A DNA stretch of 41,100 nucleotides from an uncultured Alphaproteobacteria bacterium. GTDB taxonomy: Bacteria; Pseudomonadota; Alphaproteobacteria; HIMB59; GCA-002718135. The notes beneath the pieces are model-generated. The model saw nothing but the letters and a program-made list of their open reading frames with translations, made no database searches and had not been told where the DNA came from. A program made the translations under genes and the position numbers. Positions 1-10,007 of this stretch are shown here, one piece after another. The stretch spans positions 1 through 41,100 of the forward strand of contig CACJEE010000009.1 of assembly GCA_902592345.1 (NCBI GenBank), read 5' to 3'. The stretch's first letter is position 1. Each line of letters starts with the position of its first letter.

Positions 1-316
1 GTTTAGATAAATTTCCTAGTTTTTCTTGATTTAATAAAGTTCCTGAAGGCGTAAGATATATCTTTTTAGACTCCTTGTTATGTTTTTCTGAAATAGACTT
101 TAGTGCCTTTTCAACTACATCTGGTCTTAAAACCATTCCTGGCCCACCACCAAAAGGCTCATCATCAATACTCATTCGATCATCGATCCCAAATTCATGA
201 AGATTTATAGTATCAATTTTAAAAATATTTTCCTTAAGAGCTTTGCCTATAACAGAATGTTCTAAAATTCCTGGAAACATTTCAGGATATGCTGTTAATA
301 TTTTTACATCAATCAT
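1..316 (-). CDS. trmD: tRNA (guanine37-N1)-methyltransferase TrmD, N-terminal part, cut by the window edge
   Basis: TrmD methylates G37 of tRNAs with SAM and prevents +1 frameshifting. The start codon at 316 opens [14 protein letters not shown], followed by the family motif FGGGPGMV (about residues 55-62) and YLTPSG (about 88-93), part of the SAM-binding trefoil-knot half. Only 105 residues lie inside the window; the family is about 230-250 residues. The gene overlaps the rimM stop by 8 bases, as expected for the rpsP-rimM-trmD operon. The missing C-terminal half is not to the left within view but appears fused to DapF at 2852-3829, so this reading frame may continue into foreign sequence (predicted: the C-terminal end of DapF) just outside the window. 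Identification is sure; completeness is unknown. Confidence 0.9.
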   Translation of the reverse strand, partial: MIDVKILTAYPEMFPGILEHSVIGKALKENIFKIDTINLHEFGIDDRMSIDDEPFGGGPGMVLRPDVVEKALKSISEKHNKESKKIYLTPSGTLLNQEKLGNLSK

Positions 317-821
317 AATTAATAATGCCTTTGATTGGATTTACTATTATTTTTTTATTTTCAATATTGACTGATAGAACATTTTCGTCATTTAAAGGAA
401 TATAAATATTATTTTCTTTATATATAGTTTCTATCAGGTCTCCGGCTCCAAAATTATCAACACTTATTACATTACCAATAAAGTTTCCATTTTCATGACT
501 AATTTTACAACCAATTAAATCATTAATATAATATTCGTTAGATTTGTTTTTAGGAAAATTTTCTTTGGTCACGAATATTTTTTGATTCTTTAAAAGTTCA
601 GCATCATCACGATTGTTACAATGAGATGGAAGTCCTACACATTTTTGATTTCGCATTTGAATAGAATCAAATTTCCATTCTATAGATTGATCATAATTAT
701 AATAATGATCAAGTGATTTAAAAATATCAAAGCTTGATGTTAATAAATTTATTTTAATTTCACCCTTTAACCCAATTGCAGAACCAAAAGTGCCAACATG
801 AACAAAGCTTGATTTGTTCAA
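309..821 (-). CDS. rimM: Ribosome maturation factor RimM
   Basis: RimM binds ribosomal protein S19 and helps assemble the head of the 30S subunit. The 170-aa product has the family layout: an N-terminal barrel beginning with the typical [16 protein letters not shown] (about residues 9-24) and a C-terminal PRC-barrel-like domain (from about residue 95, [10 protein letters not shown]), ending INYD. The length is normal. It overlaps rpsP by 4 bases upstream and trmD by 8 bases downstream, so the three are probably translated as one coupled unit. Identification rests on the N-terminal motif and on operon position. Confidence 0.9.
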
Positions 822-1273
822 TTTTTACTCGGTTTTTTTTTATCAGCTTCTGCTTCTACTGGTGCTTCTGCTTCTGCTGGTGCTTCTGCTGGTGCTTCTG
901 CTGGTGCTGGTGCTTCTGCTGGTTCTTTAGAACCTTCTTCTTTTTCTTTAGCAGCTGCTAATCTTTCTTGAGTCTTTTTCTTTGGTAAATGTTTTTTTGT
1001 TTTTTCAGTAATAACTGGTTTTTCAACTACACCTAAATTACTTAAAAATATAGTTACTCTATCCGAAGGTTGTGCTCCTTTTGCCATCCAGTCTTTAGCT
1101 TTTTCAACATCAATCTTTACTCTGTCCGGACTATCTTTTGGCAGCATAGGATTGTAAGTACCTAATTGATCAATGAATTTTCCATCTCTTGCACGTCTTG
1201 AATCTGCTACAACAATCCTATAAAAAGGTCTTTTTTTTGCTCCCCCTCTGGATAATCTTATTCTTACTGGCAT
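818..1273 (-). CDS. rpsP: 30S ribosomal protein S16 with an Ala/Glu/Pro-rich C-terminal tail
   Basis: S16 is a primary-binding protein of the small subunit. The first 80 or so residues are canonical: [20 protein letters not shown], then ADSRRARDG and LGTYNPM. At 151 aa the protein is much longer than the roughly 80-90 aa core. From about residue 90 it becomes lysine-rich and then an imperfect A-E-A-P-type repeat, ending in a basic KKKPSKN. A good ribosome-binding site (AAGGAAA on the minus strand, about 1278-1284) precedes the start. It lies 18 bases downstream of ffh and overlaps rimM by 4 bases. Extended S16 tails are known in Alphaproteobacteria; the tail here looks disordered. Confidence 0.97.
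845..925. repeat. Imperfect 12-base tandem repeat encoding the S16 tail
   Basis: On the plus strand the unit is close to GGTGCTTCTGCT, repeated with changes about six times. Read on the minus strand it encodes the A-E-A-P repeats of the rpsP tail. Such a short in-frame repeat can gain or lose units by slippage without breaking the gene, so tail length may vary between strains. That variation is inferred, not seen. Confidence 0.8.
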
Positions 1274-1291
1274 ACTATTTCCTTTCTTATT

Positions 1292-2656
1292 CTAGTTTAT
1301 TTTGGGCGGGAAGTTTCCTTGCAATTTTTGCATTAAATCATTAGGTATTCCACCCTTACCCATTGATTTCATTCTCTTCATCATTTTCTGTGATTGGAGA
1401 AACTGTTTTAAAAGTTTGTTTACATCTTGAACTTTAGTTCCAGATCCCTTTGAAATTCTAATTTTTCTTGAAGCCTTTATGAGGTTTGGATCGGATCTTT
1501 CCTGCTTAGTCATAGAATTAATGATTGCAATTTGATGATTTATTAGTCTGTCAGATATTTTATTTTCTGCCATCAATTTTTGTGCTTTAGAAACTCCAGG
1601 TAGCATAGATAAAATACCTGAAACGCCTCCCATTTTTCCCATTTGTTTTAACTGGTTTGCAAAATCATCTAAATCAAAATTGCCTTTTGACATTTTCTTT
1701 GCAAATGTTTCCATTTCATCTTGATCAATGTTCTCAGATGCTTTTTCAACAAGACTAACAATATCTCCCATTCCTAAAATTCGTTGAGCAATTCTTTCTG
1801 GGTGAAAAGATTCAAAATTTTCTATTTTTTCTCCAACTCCAATAAACTTTACTGGAGAGTTGGTTATTGACTTAATAGATAAAGCAGCTCCACCCCTACT
1901 ATCTCCATCAACTCGCGTAAGTATAGATCCTGTAATATTAACAGCTTCACTAAAACTTTTTGCCACATTAGCAGCGTCTTGTCCTGTAAGCGCATCTGCA
2001 ACTAATAAAGTTTCTTGAGGCTGAAAAGATTTTTCAATTTCAATTAATTCTTTCATCAAATCTTGATCAACTACTTGTCTTCCAGCAGTATCAAGAATTA
2101 CGACATCAATTAAATTTTTTTTAGCATATTCTAGAGTCTCACTAATTATTTGTTTTACAGATTTTAAATTATGACTAAAAAAATTGACTTGAACTTGTCC
2201 TGCAAGAATTTTTAATTGCTCTTGTGCTGCAGGTCTATAAATATCTGCTGAAGACAGCAAAACTTTTTTCTTAGAAGATTTTACTAAATGATTTGCAAGT
2301 TTTGCAACAGAAGTTGTTTTTCCTGATCCTTGAAGTCCACAAAATAAAATTTTTGTCATCTGAGAGGTAGGAATATTGAGCGGTTGGTTTTCAGATCCAA
2401 GAATATTTACTAACTCATCTTGAACAAGCTTGATGATCATCTGATCAGGCTTTATTGATTTTAACACCTCTTTACCTAAAATGCTTTCCTTAACTGTGCT
2501 AATAAAATCCTTCACAACTATTAAAGCAACATCTGCCTCTAAAAGAGCAATACGAATTTCTCGAAGGGTGGAGTCTAAGTCCGACTCTGATATAACTGCC
2601 TTGCCACGTATACCACGAACAATTTTTTCAAACTTATCATTCAATGTTTCAAACAT
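1292..2656 (-). CDS. ffh: Signal recognition particle protein Ffh (SRP54)
   Basis: Ffh binds the signal sequences of nascent membrane proteins and the SRP RNA, and docks on FtsY in a GTP-dependent way. The 454-aa product shows the N-domain (1-90), the G-domain with P-loop GLQGSGKTT (about 107-115), the RPAAQEQL motif (about 141-148), DTAGR (about 189-193) and the downstream TRVDGD motif, then the methionine-rich M-domain (about 300-454), which includes KMMKRMKSMGKGG for RNA binding. Length is normal. The start at 2656 has GGAG about five bases upstream. It heads the ffh-rpsP-rimM-trmD operon and is transcribed away from the dapF fragment at 2852. Confidence 0.98.
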   Translation of the reverse strand: MFETLNDKFEKIVRGIRGKAVISESDLDSTLREIRIALLEADVALIVVKDFISTVKESILGKEVLKSIKPDQMIIKLVQDELVNILGSENQPLNIPTSQMTKILFCGLQGSGKTTSVAKLANHLVKSSKKKVLLSSADIYRPAAQEQLKILAGQVQVNFFSHNLKSVKQIISETLEYAKKNLIDVVILDTAGRQVVDQDLMKELIEIEKSFQPQETLLVADALTGQDAANVAKSFSEAVNITGSILTRVDGDSRGGAALSIKSITNSPVKFIGVGEKIENFESFHPERIAQRILGMGDIVSLVEKASENIDQDEMETFAKKMSKGNFDLDDFANQLKQMGKMGGVSGILSMLPGVSKAQKLMAENKISDRLINHQIAIINSMTKQERSDPNLIKASRKIRISKGSGTKVQDVNKLLKQFLQSQKMMKRMKSMGKGGIPNDLMQKLQGNFPPKIN

Positions 2657-2665
2657 ATTTCTCCA

Positions 2666-2713
2666 ATAGCGTTGCTACACCAGGGCACGAAACTCGTGGG
2701 CTGATGTACCTAT
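2666..2713 (-). promoter_or_regulatory. Candidate hairpin in the ffh leader, next to its ribosome-binding site
   Basis: An 8-pair stem (2676-2683 with 2701-2708) carries a 2x2 C/C internal loop and a 5-pair apical stem (2686-2690 with 2694-2698) around a 3-base loop. Four more pairs (2666-2669 with 2710-2713) close the base. The one non-Watson-Crick position is G-U on the minus strand but C-A on the plus strand, so the fold suits an RNA read toward ffh. It ends one base from the ffh Shine-Dalgarno GGAG (2661-2664). It could be a translational control element. It lacks the GGAA-tetraloop tip of SRP RNA and I cannot assign it to a riboswitch class I know. Confidence 0.4.
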
Positions 2714-2851
2714 CACAATTGTAACAAGCTTTTTACTTTACAATTTAGGATTTGTAAGAACCCCTCTATTTATTGAGACTAATAAAGTCAAGGTTTCTTA
2801 AAATTTAAAAAATTTCCAGGATTTCTGGGTAAATTAAGGTATAGAGACTTT

Positions 2852-3829
2852 ATGCAAAAAATAGAATTTACAAAAATGCATGGTTTGGGAAATGATTTTG
2901 TTATCATTGATAGAAGATCAAAAAAAATTGAAATAAATGATAATTTAATTCAAAAATTAAGTGATCGCAGAACAGGCGCTGGTTGTGACCAACTAATTAC
3001 CATTAATACTGCAAAAAAAAACGATGTTGATGTTAGTATTGATATTTTTAATCCAGAAGGTGATAAAGCAGAAGCATGTGGAAATGGAACTAGGTGCGTT
3101 GCAAAAATTCTTTTTGATGAAAATAATAAAAAAGAAACTCTAAAAATTATTTCAGACGCAGGGACTTTAATAGCTAAAAAAGCTGGTGATAAAATTAGCG
3201 TTAATATGGGTAAGATGACAACTGACTGGAAAAAAATACCACTTACTAAAGAAATGGATACATTAAATATTCCAATTAATATTGAGGGTTTTGATAAAGG
3301 AGTTGCAGTAAATATAGGCAATCCTCATATTGTTTTTTATGGGAAATCAATTGAAAACATTGATTTAAATACAATAGGACCAATGATAGAAAAACATAAT
3401 TTTTTTCCAAATAAAACTAATGTTGAATTTATCGAAGTAGTAAATTTGAATACAATTAAAATGAAGGTTTGGGAAAGAGCAATAGATGTTTTGGGTTTTG
3501 AGGAAGTTAGTATAGGAAATTATGTCCTGGCTGGAGGAGAGATTGCAGCGCAAGTGTTACTTGAAGGTTGTATTCGTCTCATTCCTGGAGTATTAGGGCA
3601 TCCGGAAAGTTTATTAGAAGAGAGTTTTTCTAATAATCTTCTAGAGTATCCTCATTATACTAGACCTCAGGTCTGGGTGGACTCTCTAGGAAATAAACAT
3701 GATGTACCAGAAGTTTTAACATCAGGTCATCATAGTAATATAAAAAAATGGAGACTAAACAAGTCTATTGAAAAAACTAAAAATATTCGACCAGATATGT
3801 ATATTAATAAGGAACAAAAACAGGACTAG
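2852..3829 (+). CDS. Chimeric ORF: N-terminal diaminopimelate epimerase (DapF) joined in frame to the C-terminal half of TrmD
   Basis: Residues 1-209 are DapF (interconversion of LL- and meso-diaminopimelate in lysine and peptidoglycan synthesis): [12 protein letters not shown] near the start, the first catalytic cysteine C76 in EACGNGTRC, and the late motif MKVWER. DapF should continue with the G-x-x-x-T-x-A-C-G-[ST]-G segment holding the second catalytic cysteine; that is absent. From about residue 210 the protein is instead Trm[12 protein letters not shown] (220-230), [33 protein letters not shown] and the C-terminal RPDM. The joint falls at GAAAGAG (3473-3479), which can encode the E-R found in both families (WERG in DapF, DER in TrmD). 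Neither activity should be intact. The N-terminal half of TrmD lies on the minus strand at 1-316. It is a real inversion or an assembly/amplification chimera. Next gene rplS starts 2 bases after the stop. Confidence 0.88.
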
Positions 3830-3831
3830 AT

Positions 3832-4437
3832 ATGAGCAACTTATTGCAAACGTTTGAAAAAAAACAAATAGAAAAATTAACTGGAAAAAAACGTATTCCT
3901 ACTTTTCGTACCGGAGATACATTAAAGGTAACACTAAGAATTACTGAGGGTGATAAGTCGAGACTTCAAGCATTTGAGGGTATGTGTATTGCAAGAAAAA
4001 ATAATTCAGTAAACTCTAATTTTACAGTTAGAAAACTTTCTCATGGCGAGGGTGTTGAGAGAGTGTTTCCTTTATTTGGTCCAATGATTGAAAAAATTGA
4101 AGTCGTTCGTAAAGGAGATGTAAGAAGGGCTAAACTTTACTATTTAAGAGATAGAACTGGTAAGAAAGCTCGTATTGCTGATCGTGACAGGGGAGATGAG
4201 GCTGATCAATATGCAATGATTGAAGAAGATCCTGTTCAAGAATTAAATTCAAATGAGAGTGAGTCTTCAGTTGAAACAAAACAAGAAACAGCAAATGAAG
4301 TAAAAGAAGTTGAGGCTGTTCAAGATAAGCAACAAGATAAACAAGAAGAAGAATCTTCTGAAGAGCCTAAGTTAGAAGAAAAAAAAGAAGAGGCAACAGC
4401 AGAGGATGCTGAAAATAAAACGGATGAAAAATCCTAA
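3832..4437 (+). CDS. rplS: 50S ribosomal protein L19 with a long acidic C-terminal extension
   Basis: L19 sits at the 30S-50S interface. Residues 1-115 match the family: [20 protein letters not shown] (about 23-42), [24 protein letters not shown] and the C-terminal core motif [15 protein letters not shown]. The usual length is about 115-130 aa. Here 201 aa are reached through an extension from about residue 130 that is very rich in Glu, Gln and Lys and is probably disordered. It lies directly after the TrmD portion of the chimera, which is the normal trmD-rplS order, and overlaps leuC by 14 bases. Confidence 0.97.
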
Positions 4438-5827
4438 ACCTAAAACTCTATTTGATAAAATTTGGCATCATCACCTTGTTAACCAACAAGAAGATGGAAC
4501 ATGCCTTATATATATAGATCGTCATTTAGTTCATGAAGTAACAAGCCCACAAGCATTTGAGGGCTTAAGAGATAACAATAGAAAAGTTCATCGTCCTGAA
4601 AGCACATTTGCCGTTGCTGATCATAATGTCCCAACATCTGATAGGTCTAAAGGAATTGATAACGAAGAAAGTAGAATTCAAGTAGAGACACTTGAAAATA
4701 ATTGCAAAGAATTTGGAGTAACAATATTTCCTCTGCTAGATAGAAGACAAGGAATTGTACATATTGTTGGTCCAGAGCAAGGAATAACACAACCAGGTAT
4801 GACCATTGTTTGTGGGGATAGTCATACTGCTACACATGGCGCTTTTGGAGCACTAGCATTTGGTATAGGAACAAGTGAAGTTGAGCATGTTTTAGCAAGT
4901 CAAACTTTAATTCAACAACCTGCAAAAAATATGAAAATTTCAGTTAATGGAAATCTTAAACCTGGAGTGACAGCAAAAGATATAATACTTCATATTATAG
5001 GCTTGATTGGTACAGCTGGTGGCACAGGATATGTTATTGAATATGCAGGTGATGTAATTCATTCACTTAGTATGGAAGGTCGAATGACTATTTGCAATAT
5101 GAGTATAGAAGCAGGGGCTAGAGCAGGTTTGATTGCTCCTGACCAAACTACCTTTGATTATATTGAAGGGAGACCTTATGCTCCAAAAGGTCAAGACTGG
5201 GATAAGGCAATAGAGTTTTGGAAATCATTACCATCAGATGAAAATGCAAAATACGATAAAGAAATAAACATTAAAGCTGAAGAGATCTCACCACAAATTA
5301 CTTGGGGAACAAGTCCACAAGATGTAGTTCCAATTAATGGAAAGGTTCCCAACCCAGAAACTATTGAGGATCTTAATCGAAAAAAAGCTGTTGAGCGTTC
5401 ATTAGAATATATGGGTTTAGAGCCAGATCAAGAAATTGAAAAAATAAAAATTGATAAAGTATTTATTGGTTCTTGCACAAATGGAAGAATAGAAGATTTA
5501 AGAGAAGTTGCTAGAGTTGTTGAGGGAAAAAAAGTATCTGTTGATTCAATGATAGTTCCTGGATCTGGCTTGGTTAAAGAACAAGCTGAGAGCGAAGGTT
5601 TAGATAAAATTTTTATTGATGCAGGATTTGATTGGAGAGAACCTGGCTGCTCAATGTGTCTGGCAATGAATCCAGATCAACTAAAACCAAAAGAAAGATG
5701 TGCCTCAACATCAAATAGAAATTTTGAAGGAAGACAAGGTAGAGAAGGCAGAACTCATTTAGTAAGTCCTGTTATTGCTGCTGCTTCAGCAATTAAAGGA
5801 ACTTTTGCCCAAGAAAGTGATTTGTGA
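4424..5827 (+). CDS. leuC: 3-isopropylmalate dehydratase large subunit LeuC
   Basis: LeuC with LeuD isomerises 2-isopropylmalate to 3-isopropylmalate in leucine synthesis, using a [4Fe-4S] cluster. The 467-aa product shows TLFDKIW at the start, [39 protein letters not shown] and the cluster cysteines C351 (GSCTNGR), C409 and C412 (CSMCLAM). I chose the ATG at 4424 over an in-frame ATG at 4406 because homologues begin a few residues before TL[YF]DK and the total then matches the family length. The start lies inside the end of rplS (14-base overlap). leuD follows with a 1-base stop/start overlap. Confidence 0.97.
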
Positions 5828-6429: not shown

Positions 6430-7542
6430 ATGAGTAATAAAAAAATTCTTGTTTTACCAGGTGACGGAATCGGTAATGAGGTTATGGCAGAAGTTCTTAA
6501 TATAATTGATTGGTTATCCAAAACTCGATCTATGTCATTTGATATATCTGAGAGATTAGTTGGGGGAAAAGCATATGATAAAGAGGGTGACTCTATAAGC
6601 GATTCAACTATGCAAGAAGCATTAGAATCAGATGCAGTTTTGTTTGGTGCAGTTGGAGGACCTCAATGGGATAATGTTGAAAGAGAAAAACGTCCTGAAG
6701 CAGCTCTTTTAAGATTAAGGAAAGAATTAGATTTGTTTGCTAATTTACGACCAGCCGTTGTTCTTGACGCTCTTTCCAAGTCTTCTTCTTTGAAATTAGA
6801 TTTAGTAAAAGGATTAGATATTTTAATAGTAAGAGAACTAACAAGTGGTGTGTATTTTGGTCAGCCAAGGGGAATTACCAAAATTAGTGATACAGAAAGC
6901 AAAGCAATTGATACTCAGGTTTATACTACATCAGAGATAGAAAGGGTTTCAAGAGTTGCATTTGAATTAGCAAAATTAAGAAGAAACAAAGTTTCATCAG
7001 CTGAGAAATCTAATGTTATGGAAACAGGGTTATTTTGGAGAAATATTGTTACTGATTTGCATAGAAATGAATATGCGTCGGTTGAGTTAGAGCACATATT
7101 AGCAGATAATTGTGCAATGCAACTTGTTAGGTACCCAAAACAATTTGATGTTATTCTTACAGACAATCTTTTTGGAGACTTGCTTAGTGATACTGCTGCT
7201 ATGTTAACAGGTTCACTTGGTATGCTTCCTTCAGCATCACTTGGACCAGTAAAAGCAAATGGTACTAGAGCAGCTATGTACGAACCAGTTCATGGAAGTG
7301 CTCCAGATATTGCTGGTCAATCAAAAGCTAACCCACTTGCTATGATTATGAGTTTTGCGATGATGCTTAAATATAGTTTTAATATGGAAGAAGATAGCAA
7401 ACTAATTGAAAAAGCTGTTCAAAATGTTTTGTTAAAAGGTCTAAGAACTGCTGATATTAAGGATGGAGCAGATGAAATTATTTCTACTACAGAAATGGGT
7501 GTTGCTGTTATAGAAGAGTTGAAAATTTTATCAGGAAATTAA
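6430..7542 (+). CDS. leuB: 3-isopropylmalate dehydrogenase LeuB
   Basis: LeuB oxidatively decarboxylates 3-isopropylmalate with NAD+ in leucine synthesis. The 370-aa product has [10 protein letters not shown] at the N-terminus, [21 protein letters not shown], the substrate-binding region [30 protein letters not shown] with metal-binding aspartates, and [13 protein letters not shown] near the C-terminus. It directly abuts leuD and asd with no spare bases, so leuC-leuD-leuB-asd is very probably one transcript. Length is normal. Confidence 0.97.
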
Positions 7543-8586
7543 ATGAGTCAAAAATATAATGTAGCAGTAGCAGGAGCTACAGGAGCAGTAGGAACGGAGA
7601 TTGTTCAAATTTTAGAACAAAGAGATTTTCCAATTGATAATTTATATTTACTTGCATCCTCAAAATCTAAAGGAAAAAAAATTGAATTTAAAGACAAGGA
7701 AATTTTAGTTGAAGATCTTGCAGAATTTGATTTTAAAAAAGCACACATAGGTTTATTTTCTCCAGGTGGAAAAATTTCTGCAGAATATGCACCTAAAGCT
7801 GCTGAAGCAGGTTGTATAGTTATTGATAATACATCGCATTTTCGAATGCAAAAAAATGTACCTCTAATAGTTCCTGAAGTAAATGCTAATGCGCTTGATG
7901 AATTTTTTCAAGATGAAAATAGAACAAATATTATTTCAAATCCTAATTGCTCAACAATACAAATGGTAGTTGCCTTAAAACCACTTCATGAAAAATCAAT
8001 TATAAACAGAGTTGTTGTGTCCACATATCAAGCAGTATCTGGTGCGGGAAAAACAGGTATGGATGAATTGTTTAATCAAACACAAAACGTTTATGCAAAC
8101 CAAGAATTAAAAAAAGAAAAGTTCACAAAGCAAATTGCATTTAATGCTATTCCACATATTGGAGCTTTTTTAGAAAATGGTAATACTGAAGAAGAACAAA
8201 AAATGATTGATGAGACAAAAAAAATCTTAGATGAAGGTATTAATGTCTCAGCTACATGTGTTAGAACTGCAGTCTTCATAGGTCACTCTGAATCAGTAAA
8301 TATTGAATTTGATTCTCCATTAGACGAAAAGGAAGCACGCGAAATTTTATCAAACTTTGATGGTATTTCTATCATTGATCATAGAAAAGATGAGGGATAT
8401 GTCACTCCAGTTGAAATTGCTGGTGAAGATAAAGTTTATGTAAGCCGAATAAGAAATGATAACTCAGTTGATAATGGATTAAATCTTTGGGTTGTATCCG
8501 ATAATCTTCGTAAAGGCGCAGCTCTAAATGCAGTTCAAATAGCAGAAATTGTGGTAAAAGATTATAATTCTTATTTATCTATTTAA
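7543..8586 (+). CDS. asd: Aspartate-semialdehyde dehydrogenase
   Basis: Asd reduces aspartyl phosphate to aspartate semialdehyde with NADPH, the branch point to lysine/diaminopimelate, threonine and methionine. The 347-aa product shows the nucleotide-binding GATGAVGTEI (about 11-20), VIDNTSHFRM, the catalytic cysteine C136 in SNPNCSTIQM, STYQAVSGAGK and the later NDNSVDNGLNLWVV. It is the last gene of the leuCDB-asd run; 31 bases of AT-rich sequence separate it from the oxygenase gene that follows. Confidence 0.97.
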   Translation: MSQKYNVAVAGATGAVGTEIVQILEQRDFPIDNLYLLASSKSKGKKIEFKDKEILVEDLAEFDFKKAHIGLFSPGGKISAEYAPKAAEAGCIVIDNTSHFRMQKNVPLIVPEVNANALDEFFQDENRTNIISNPNCSTIQMVVALKPLHEKSIINRVVVSTYQAVSGAGKTGMDELFNQTQNVYANQELKKEKFTKQIAFNAIPHIGAFLENGNTEEEQKMIDETKKILDEGINVSATCVRTAVFIGHSESVNIEFDSPLDEKEAREILSNFDGISIIDHRKDEGYVTPVEIAGEDKVYVSRIRNDNSVDNGLNLWVVSDNLRKGAALNAVQIAEIVVKDYNSYLSI

Positions 8587-8617
8587 GTTTTTAAAAATAA
8601 AAATATAATAACTAAAT

Positions 8618-9256
8618 ATGTCAAATGAAGTGAATTTAGAACTATCGATTGTAAGAGCATTTGGACCAACAATAGGTATTACCAATATTCCTGATTTAGT
8701 AATAAAAAAATTAAATGCGTTTGTAGATAATGAAGTTGATAAGAACCTAGAATTAGCGAAAAATCTTGATCATGGGAATAAACTTGCTGGTCAAGTTAAG
8801 CAAGAAATTGTGATTCCGAGAGAAATTATAGAGCCAGAATTATTTTCTTTTTTATTAAATGTTACTAAACATTTTGTAAAAACAGGAAGAGGAAAAGATA
8901 TAACAAAATTTGAAATTATTAATGCGTGGATTGTTAGACAGTTTGAAAATGAATATAATCCAATCCATTATCACAATGGTCATATTTCTGGTGCAGGATA
9001 TATAATGCTTCCAGATAGTTTTGGAGAGTCTATTCAAAAAACGAAAGTCAACAATGTTAACGGTCATATAAATTTTTCATATGGTGTAAGACAATTTATG
9101 AATAATGGTCATATAAGTTATAAACCTAAAATAGGTGATTTTTATATTTTTCCTAATTATCTCTATCATTCAGTGAATCCTTTTTTTGGACCTGGTGAAA
9201 GAAGATCAATTTCTTTTAACGCATTAATAGATGATAAGATTTATAATGTTTATTGA
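8618..9256 (+). CDS. Putative 2-oxoglutarate/Fe(II)-dependent oxygenase
   Basis: The 212-aa product resembles the small uncharacterised 2OG-Fe(II) oxygenase family (TIGR02466/PF13759 type). The segment NPIHYHNGHISGAGYIM (about residues 114-130) matches the family pattern P-x-H-x-H-x(4)-SG-x-x-Y and supplies the first iron ligand. YLYHSVNPFFGPGERRSISF near the C-terminus supplies the distal histidine and the arginine that binds 2-oxoglutarate. No signal peptide is seen. Substrate unknown. It may share the asd transcript (31-base gap) or use its own promoter in the AT-rich gap. Confidence 0.75.
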   Translation: MSNEVNLELSIVRAFGPTIGITNIPDLVIKKLNAFVDNEVDKNLELAKNLDHGNKLAGQVKQEIVIPREIIEPELFSFLLNVTKHFVKTGRGKDITKFEIINAWIVRQFENEYNPIHYHNGHISGAGYIMLPDSFGESIQKTKVNNVNGHINFSYGVRQFMNNGHISYKPKIGDFYIFPNYLYHSVNPFFGPGERRSISFNALIDDKIYNVY

Positions 9257-9329
9257 TTAATTTTTTTCTATAACTTTGGTATTTATAATAAATACATTAA
9301 TTTTCTAAATATTTTGTGTTCATTATTTT

Positions 9330-9404
9330 TGGTGGTCTCGTAGGGACTCGAACCCCAAATCCATGTTCCGAAGACACGTGTGATATCCATTTCACCACGA
9401 GACC
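9330..9404 (-). tRNA. tRNA-Arg (anticodon UCG)
   Basis: Read on the minus strand, a 7-bp acceptor stem GGTCTCG/CGAGACC (9398-9404 with 9334-9340) encloses a D arm, an anticodon stem CGTGT/ACATG with loop CTTCGGA, a 5-base variable loop and a T arm with TTCGAGT. The anticodon TCG reads CGN arginine codons, chiefly CGA and CGG. Discriminator A is followed by an encoded CCA (9330-9332). All arms pair, with G-U pairs in the anticodon and T stems. Flanks are AT-rich with no other gene. Confidence 0.95.
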
Positions 9405-9446
9405 AATTTTTATTATACATTATTTTTTTATTAATAAATTTGTAAA

Positions 9447-10007
9447 CTACCAAGAACTATCAGGTTGATTTAAGAAAGCTTCTTCTTCAGGTGTAGACTT
9501 ACGTTTTAAAATCTTATTTCTATGAGGATATCTCCCAAATTTTTTTATTGGTATTGTATGATCATTCCATGCTTTTTTAATTTTATCAAAATACTCAAAT
9601 GACTTTAAATAAGTATCAATAAGTTTATGCCCAAAGATATGATCGCTGATATCCTCACTATGAATAAGAGGCATTAAAAGAAAATGAATTTTATTTTGAT
9701 CTAATTCTTCAAGGTACCCTCTATCAACAGCCTCATTTACGATTAAGCGAGTTTTATAATCTTGTGCAAATGAAGCTGAACTGTCTCTATAAAGATTTCT
9801 AGAAAATTGATCTAAAAGTATTACTAGAGCAACACACTCCATCGCAGTATCTTGCCATTCATCATACTCATTATTAGTAGCCTTTTTAAGGTCTTCTAGA
9901 AATAATTTTTTAATTTTTTCATCATATTTAGCATCTTTTTTAAACCAATCTTCCATACTTGATTTAATAAACCAGAAATCTAAAATTGCTTTTGCTCTTT
10001 CATTCAT
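9447..10007 (-). CDS. DUF924 family protein
   Basis: The product is of the DUF924 family (TPR-like fold, function not established): AKAILDFWF at the N-terminus, W-F-K-K-D about 15 residues later, the strongly conserved LLDQFSRNLYRDS, and LLMPLIHSED. I use the ATG at 10007 (186 aa), which gives MNERAKAILDFWF as in homologues. Upstream in-frame starts reach 10061 but would overlap the divergent UDG gene start at 10039. It is alone on this strand, between the tRNA gene and the divergent operon. Confidence 0.8.
   Translation of the reverse strand: MNERAKAILDFWFIKSSMEDWFKKDAKYDEKIKKLFLEDLKKATNNEYDEWQDTAMECVALVILLDQFSRNLYRDSSASFAQDYKTRLIVNEAVDRGYLEELDQNKIHFLLMPLIHSEDISDHIFGHKLIDTYLKSFEYFDKIKKAWNDHTIPIKKFGRYPHRNKILKRKSTPEEEAFLNQPDSSW

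Follow-up and report, generated by a model that had tools for sequence, protein, structure and literature searches.

The closest described counterparts of the arrangement reported here are the chimeric sequences that arise during MDA. In the 2007 study by Lasken and Stockwell (PMC1855051), 406 of 475 MDA chimeras were inverted and in 337 of these 406 the joined segments lay less than 10 kb apart, with both segment orders about equally frequent. Two or more complementary bases, up to a maximum of 21, were present in 76.8% of all chimeras, and complementary bases accompanied 93.5% of the inverted chimeras spanning less than 10 kb. For the GORG-Tropics workflow, the relevant section of PMC11247762 gives a misassembly rate of 1.5 per 100 kb on three benchmark cultures, a rate at which, by our own arithmetic, about 20 misassemblies would be ordinary for an assembly of the size considered here. 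This assembly, of an uncultured alphaproteobacterium, comprises 1,331,731 bases in 62 contigs and is 75.97% complete. The window analysed is the whole of one of its contigs, C9 (positions 1-41,100), which holds no sequence to the left of base 1.

Near the left end of the window lies a 325-residue open reading frame (2852-3829, plus strand) in which the N-terminal part of DapF passes, within a single frame, into the second part of TrmD. An earlier, sequence-only reading had described DapF residues 1-209 as joined in frame to TrmD, and profile searches bear this out: the DapF model TIGR00652 matches residues 4-209 (profile positions 1-206 of 270) and the TrmD model TIGR00088 matches residues 208-323 (profile positions 117-227 of 233). 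The same reading had placed the remaining TrmD half on the minus strand at 1-316, and the minus-strand frame at 2-316 does match positions 3-101 of TIGR00088, corresponding to the first 105 residues of TrmD. As it had further proposed, ffh, rpsP and rimM lie between the two trmD pieces (Table 1); judged by the gene order of relatives, these three genes (309..2656, minus strand) are inverted relative to rplS. Functional DapF possesses two catalytic cysteine motifs. The second of these, already reported as missing, is absent after the WER residues of the fused frame and in the relatives inspected directly follows WERG; by this measure the frame does not encode a functional DapF. At the DNA level, positions 2786-3479 are 94% identical to the relative L036.

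Table 1. Coordinates of the features around the dapF-trmD joint in the window
Feature	Position	Strand	Basis
dapF, first 209 codons, to the joint	2852..3479	+	TIGR00652, residues 4-209
Joint AAAGAG, common to dapF and trmD	3474..3479	+	Overlap of the alignments to L036 dapF and L037 trmD
trmD, second part	3474..3829	+	TIGR00088, profile 117-227; L037 is the closest relative
trmD, codons 1-105, truncated at the contig start	1..316	-	TIGR00088, profile 3-101
rimM	309-821	-	NCBIfam match, intact frame
rpsP	818-1273	-	NCBIfam match, intact frame
ffh	1292-2656	-	NCBIfam match, intact frame
rplS, usual gene 3' of trmD	3832-4437	+	TIGR01024; order in relatives

That the contig is an MDA (or WGA-X variant) chimera from a single marine cell, and records neither a gene fusion nor a living inversion, is in our judgement very probable. 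The gene order of related genomes was established by scanning named genomes for ffh, which identified 341 relatives, the best 80 loci being kept; the status of dapF and trmD in these was judged by motif and length limits. In 77 of the 78 loci with a recognised dapF the gene is full length, retains the second cysteine motif and lies divergently to ffh, as the sequence-only reading had required of the order before the event when it called for a search of related genomes. Only L107 and L109 have no recognised dapF. Similarly, trmD was recognised in 57 of the 80 loci and is full length on the ffh strand in 56 of them, most of the loci in which it was not recognised ending before trmD. The sole exception to both counts is L045, considered below. 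In a second, overlapping set of genomes from the same genus and the same order, the strands of DapF and TrmD matches were compared: where both fall on one contig they occupy opposite strands in 19/20 same-genus genomes (the exception being G034) and in 21/21 same-order genomes, and in five further same-genus genomes the two matches are on different contigs. Read from these relatives, the order before the event is dapF(-) ffh(+) rpsP rimM trmD(+) rplS leuC.

Three further observations concern the relatives themselves. One genome (G024:C2:364-701, near the contig start) has a match to the second half of trmD with a single internal TAA, for which a frameshift or an error is possible. The rpsP product, both in the window (818-1273) and in related loci, ends in an Ala-Glu-Pro repeat tail of variable length, which in L045 resembles the tail of rplS. 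Finally, in 15 of the 80 loci the contig ends within rpsP or shortly beyond it, and assembly apparently tends to break at this gene.

At the joint, the window tracks the dapF of L036 through position 3479 and the trmD of L037 from position 3474, so that six bases, AAAGAG, are common to both. A seven-base match, GAAAGAG, had been proposed; this was one base too long, since the preceding base is C in the trmD of 11/11 relatives measured, and G in dapF. AAAGAG itself occurs in the trmD of 8 of the 11. The match length of six takes the trmD of relatives as a stand-in, the strain's own trmD base at that site being absent from the contig, as are about 45 bases of trmD between its two halves. The joint shares several properties with the inverted class of MDA chimeras as presented in PMC1855051: the second segment is inverted with respect to the genomic orientation given by the relatives' order, the two joint ends are about 3.5 kb apart (3474 + 45 bases), within the 10 kb typical of that class, and the six complementary bases, again with the relatives' trmD standing in, fall within the range of 2-21. 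The chimeras of Lasken and Stockwell differ in that they were individual 454 reads obtained from one E. coli cell, whereas the joint in the window lies on the main contig path and is in frame.

The position of the contig start provides a further line of evidence. When projected onto related trmD genes, it lies exactly 45 bases from the joint in 11/11 measurable relatives, these being the loci of the 80 that passed the alignment thresholds. In its single-cell mode, SPAdes uses by default a k of up to 55. A branch of the assembly graph at the joint, combined with the removal of 100 bases from each contig end, gives an offset of 45 for k=55, and of 79, 67 and 23 for k=21, 33 and 77, respectively; the trmD edge would end 55 bases past the start of the joint, and after trimming the contig would stop 45 bases short of that start. 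The fit to 45 was noticed first, and the trimming was confirmed afterwards in the single-cell workflow of PMC5519541, which specifies SPAdes v3.0.0 with --careful --sc, trimming of 100 bases per contig end and retention of contigs over 2000 bases. The last four contigs of the assembly, which seem to be numbered by size, are 2033-2213 bases long and fit such a 2,000-base cut-off. Contig ends occur in the assembly at 9.3e-5 per base, which makes it unlikely that one should fall at exactly 45 bases by chance. The offset thus suggests that normal trmD was also present in the reads, as the other arm of the branch. Workflows published elsewhere differ from this one, a point against the argument from the offset. 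That of PMC7490370, for which the corresponding passage gives trimming of 200 bases and a k of up to 95, predicts 105 bases and was rejected; the passage on assembly in PMC10224968 describes no end trimming.

A second inverted joint was found in L045, which is contig 12 of AG-447-O15 (CACJRY010000012.1, region 6900-9900; also represented as G034:C12 and L007). Here, with the dapF of L036 as a stand-in, dapF runs in frame into rplS, inverted, at TTGAAAAA, and a second joint leads from the repeat tail of rplS into the similar repeat tail of rpsP. The resulting 440-codon open frame includes one undetermined residue, and the 440-residue frame of G034 is equal to it. From this sequence comparison L045 is read as a second, putative chimera. 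Contig ends were scanned for cases in which the continuation found in a relative lies within the same contig, and among the 45 testable of 49 ends (80 loci and the window) an inverted self-match was present at two only, the left end of the window and the right end of L045. In the window this match starts at base 46 of the relative's continuation. The contig ends of L066, L076, L086, L087 and L093 gave direct matches only, reflecting short end repeats, and control ends, which were ends of sequence stretches and not contig ends, gave no match in the 85 tested of 113. L045 and the window are alike in that the same operon is involved, dapF is inverted onto a gene on the trmD side and the continuation of a contig end lies inverted in the contig. 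They differ in that L045 joins dapF to rplS, has the additional joint between the rplS and rpsP tails and does not show a clean offset of 45. The offset there, determined via L042, is 20; since it falls in a repeat of strain-variable length, this value speaks neither for nor against the 45-base rule. That one operon should carry two distinct inverted joints in related genomes is better explained by an artefact than by two inversions, each independent and lethal.

Profile searches of the contigs of the assembly found no second DapF match beyond the frame at 2852-3829 and no TrmD match beyond the two pieces on C9. The other side of dapF is represented by C28 (8164-12484), which carries the genes that neighbour dapF in relatives, read as mtaB-like and ftsY. 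As a candidate carrier of the dapF remainder this contig was rejected: it runs out 463 bases beyond the joint, within the gene next after dapF in the relatives' order. On C5, a match of 33 bases was regarded as fortuitous. The distance of C28 counts against a chimera, under which the same branch predicts that the dapF remainder should begin 45 bases past the joint. The remainder could have formed a short contig dropped by the 2000-base cut-off, or could fall in a coverage gap. A reciprocal joint, from the start of trmD into the end of dapF, was not found in the assembly, its site falling in the unassembled gap.

Natural DapF-TrmD fusions were sought among 5.8 billion proteins, where 7880 of the 8000 candidates scored were accepted. 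None of the 120 matches listed of these 7880 is such a fusion, query coverage being at most 66%, and a full fusion should have ranked above those listed; the window's own protein is likewise absent among them. The 78 dapF loci also contain no DapF-TrmD fusion. A natural fusion family should be present in more than one genome, and neither the 120 matches listed of 7880 nor the 78 dapF loci provide a further member. No paper describing a DapF-TrmD fusion was found in a limited literature search.

Several alternatives to an amplification chimera were weighed. A real balanced inversion, with its ends inside dapF and trmD and two reciprocal chimeric genes left behind, is very improbable, even though one such event turns the relatives' order into exactly that of the window; the earlier claim that a single inversion accounts for the order, given divergent dapF and ffh, is upheld by derivation from the relatives. 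The site of its second joint is also unassembled, lying 45 bases from the C9 start and 463 from the C28 end, as an inversion would permit. However, dapF and trmD are usually essential, and both would have been broken in a genome whose assembly yields no other match to either, nor does an inversion offer any reason for the contig to break off at this distance of 45 bases. Plain decay, as judged by synonymous and non-synonymous codon changes, is also not seen in any part: against L037, the second part of trmD has 106 identical codons, 11 synonymous and 1 non-synonymous, and the first part 85, 14 and 6, while dapF has 173, 18 and 16 against L036, counts that are weak evidence. Less probable still is a living marine alphaproteobacterium that carries this balanced inversion, produces a DapF-TrmD hybrid protein and has been freed from both normal enzymes.

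Ranking below both of these is a pure assembly error involving no chimeric molecule. Misjoins do occur in assembly, and the position of the contig end itself suggests a graph branch at the joint, but the six common bases are far below a 55-base overlap and no N is present within 1-5200; we infer that such an error is less likely than a chimeric molecule. The least probable of all is a genuine fusion or duplication in a genome that also has intact copies of dapF and trmD at other sites. Such copies could be missing from an assembly that is about 76% complete, yet no second match to either gene was detected in it, no such fusion is among the 120 matches listed of 7880 proteins and the plain arrangement prevails in the relatives (77/78 for dapF and 56/57 for trmD). 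The view already taken in the sequence-only reading, that an amplification or assembly chimera is likelier than a living rearrangement, is supported by the divergent dapF of these 77 loci and by the 45-base distance between contig start and joint.

An amplification chimera of this kind could have formed as follows. A strand being copied by phi29 leftwards through ffh into dapF would lose its template, and its 3' end would re-anneal in trmD with a displaced strand lying close by, using the AAAGAG match. Following this putative strand switch, the re-annealed strand would be extended through the second part of trmD, rplS and leuC, and the assembler would take the chimeric path, breaking the normal trmD path off at the joint. 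The open frame across the joint would be a one-in-three accident; that both joints, in the window and in L045, are in frame counts against a chimera. A single-cell amplification source for the assembly is suggested by its closest relatives, mostly AG-numbered records titled uncultured Alphaproteobacteria, which we take to be single-cell genomes, and by its contig sizes, which agree with a single-cell workflow. Against such an origin, many of the relatives' titles, including that of L045, bear the prefix 'MAG:'. Among the relatives, L044, L048, L050, L107 and L109 are plainly metagenome bins.

An artefactual joint would carry no biological meaning in itself, and its value would be practical. 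The continuation of a contig in relatives, when found inverted within the same contig, as at 2 of the 45 ends, is a sign of a chimera that can be recognised without reads; where 100 bases have been trimmed from contig ends, the offset of the chimera may even be exact. The case also shows a route by which invented fusions of essential genes can enter public genomes.
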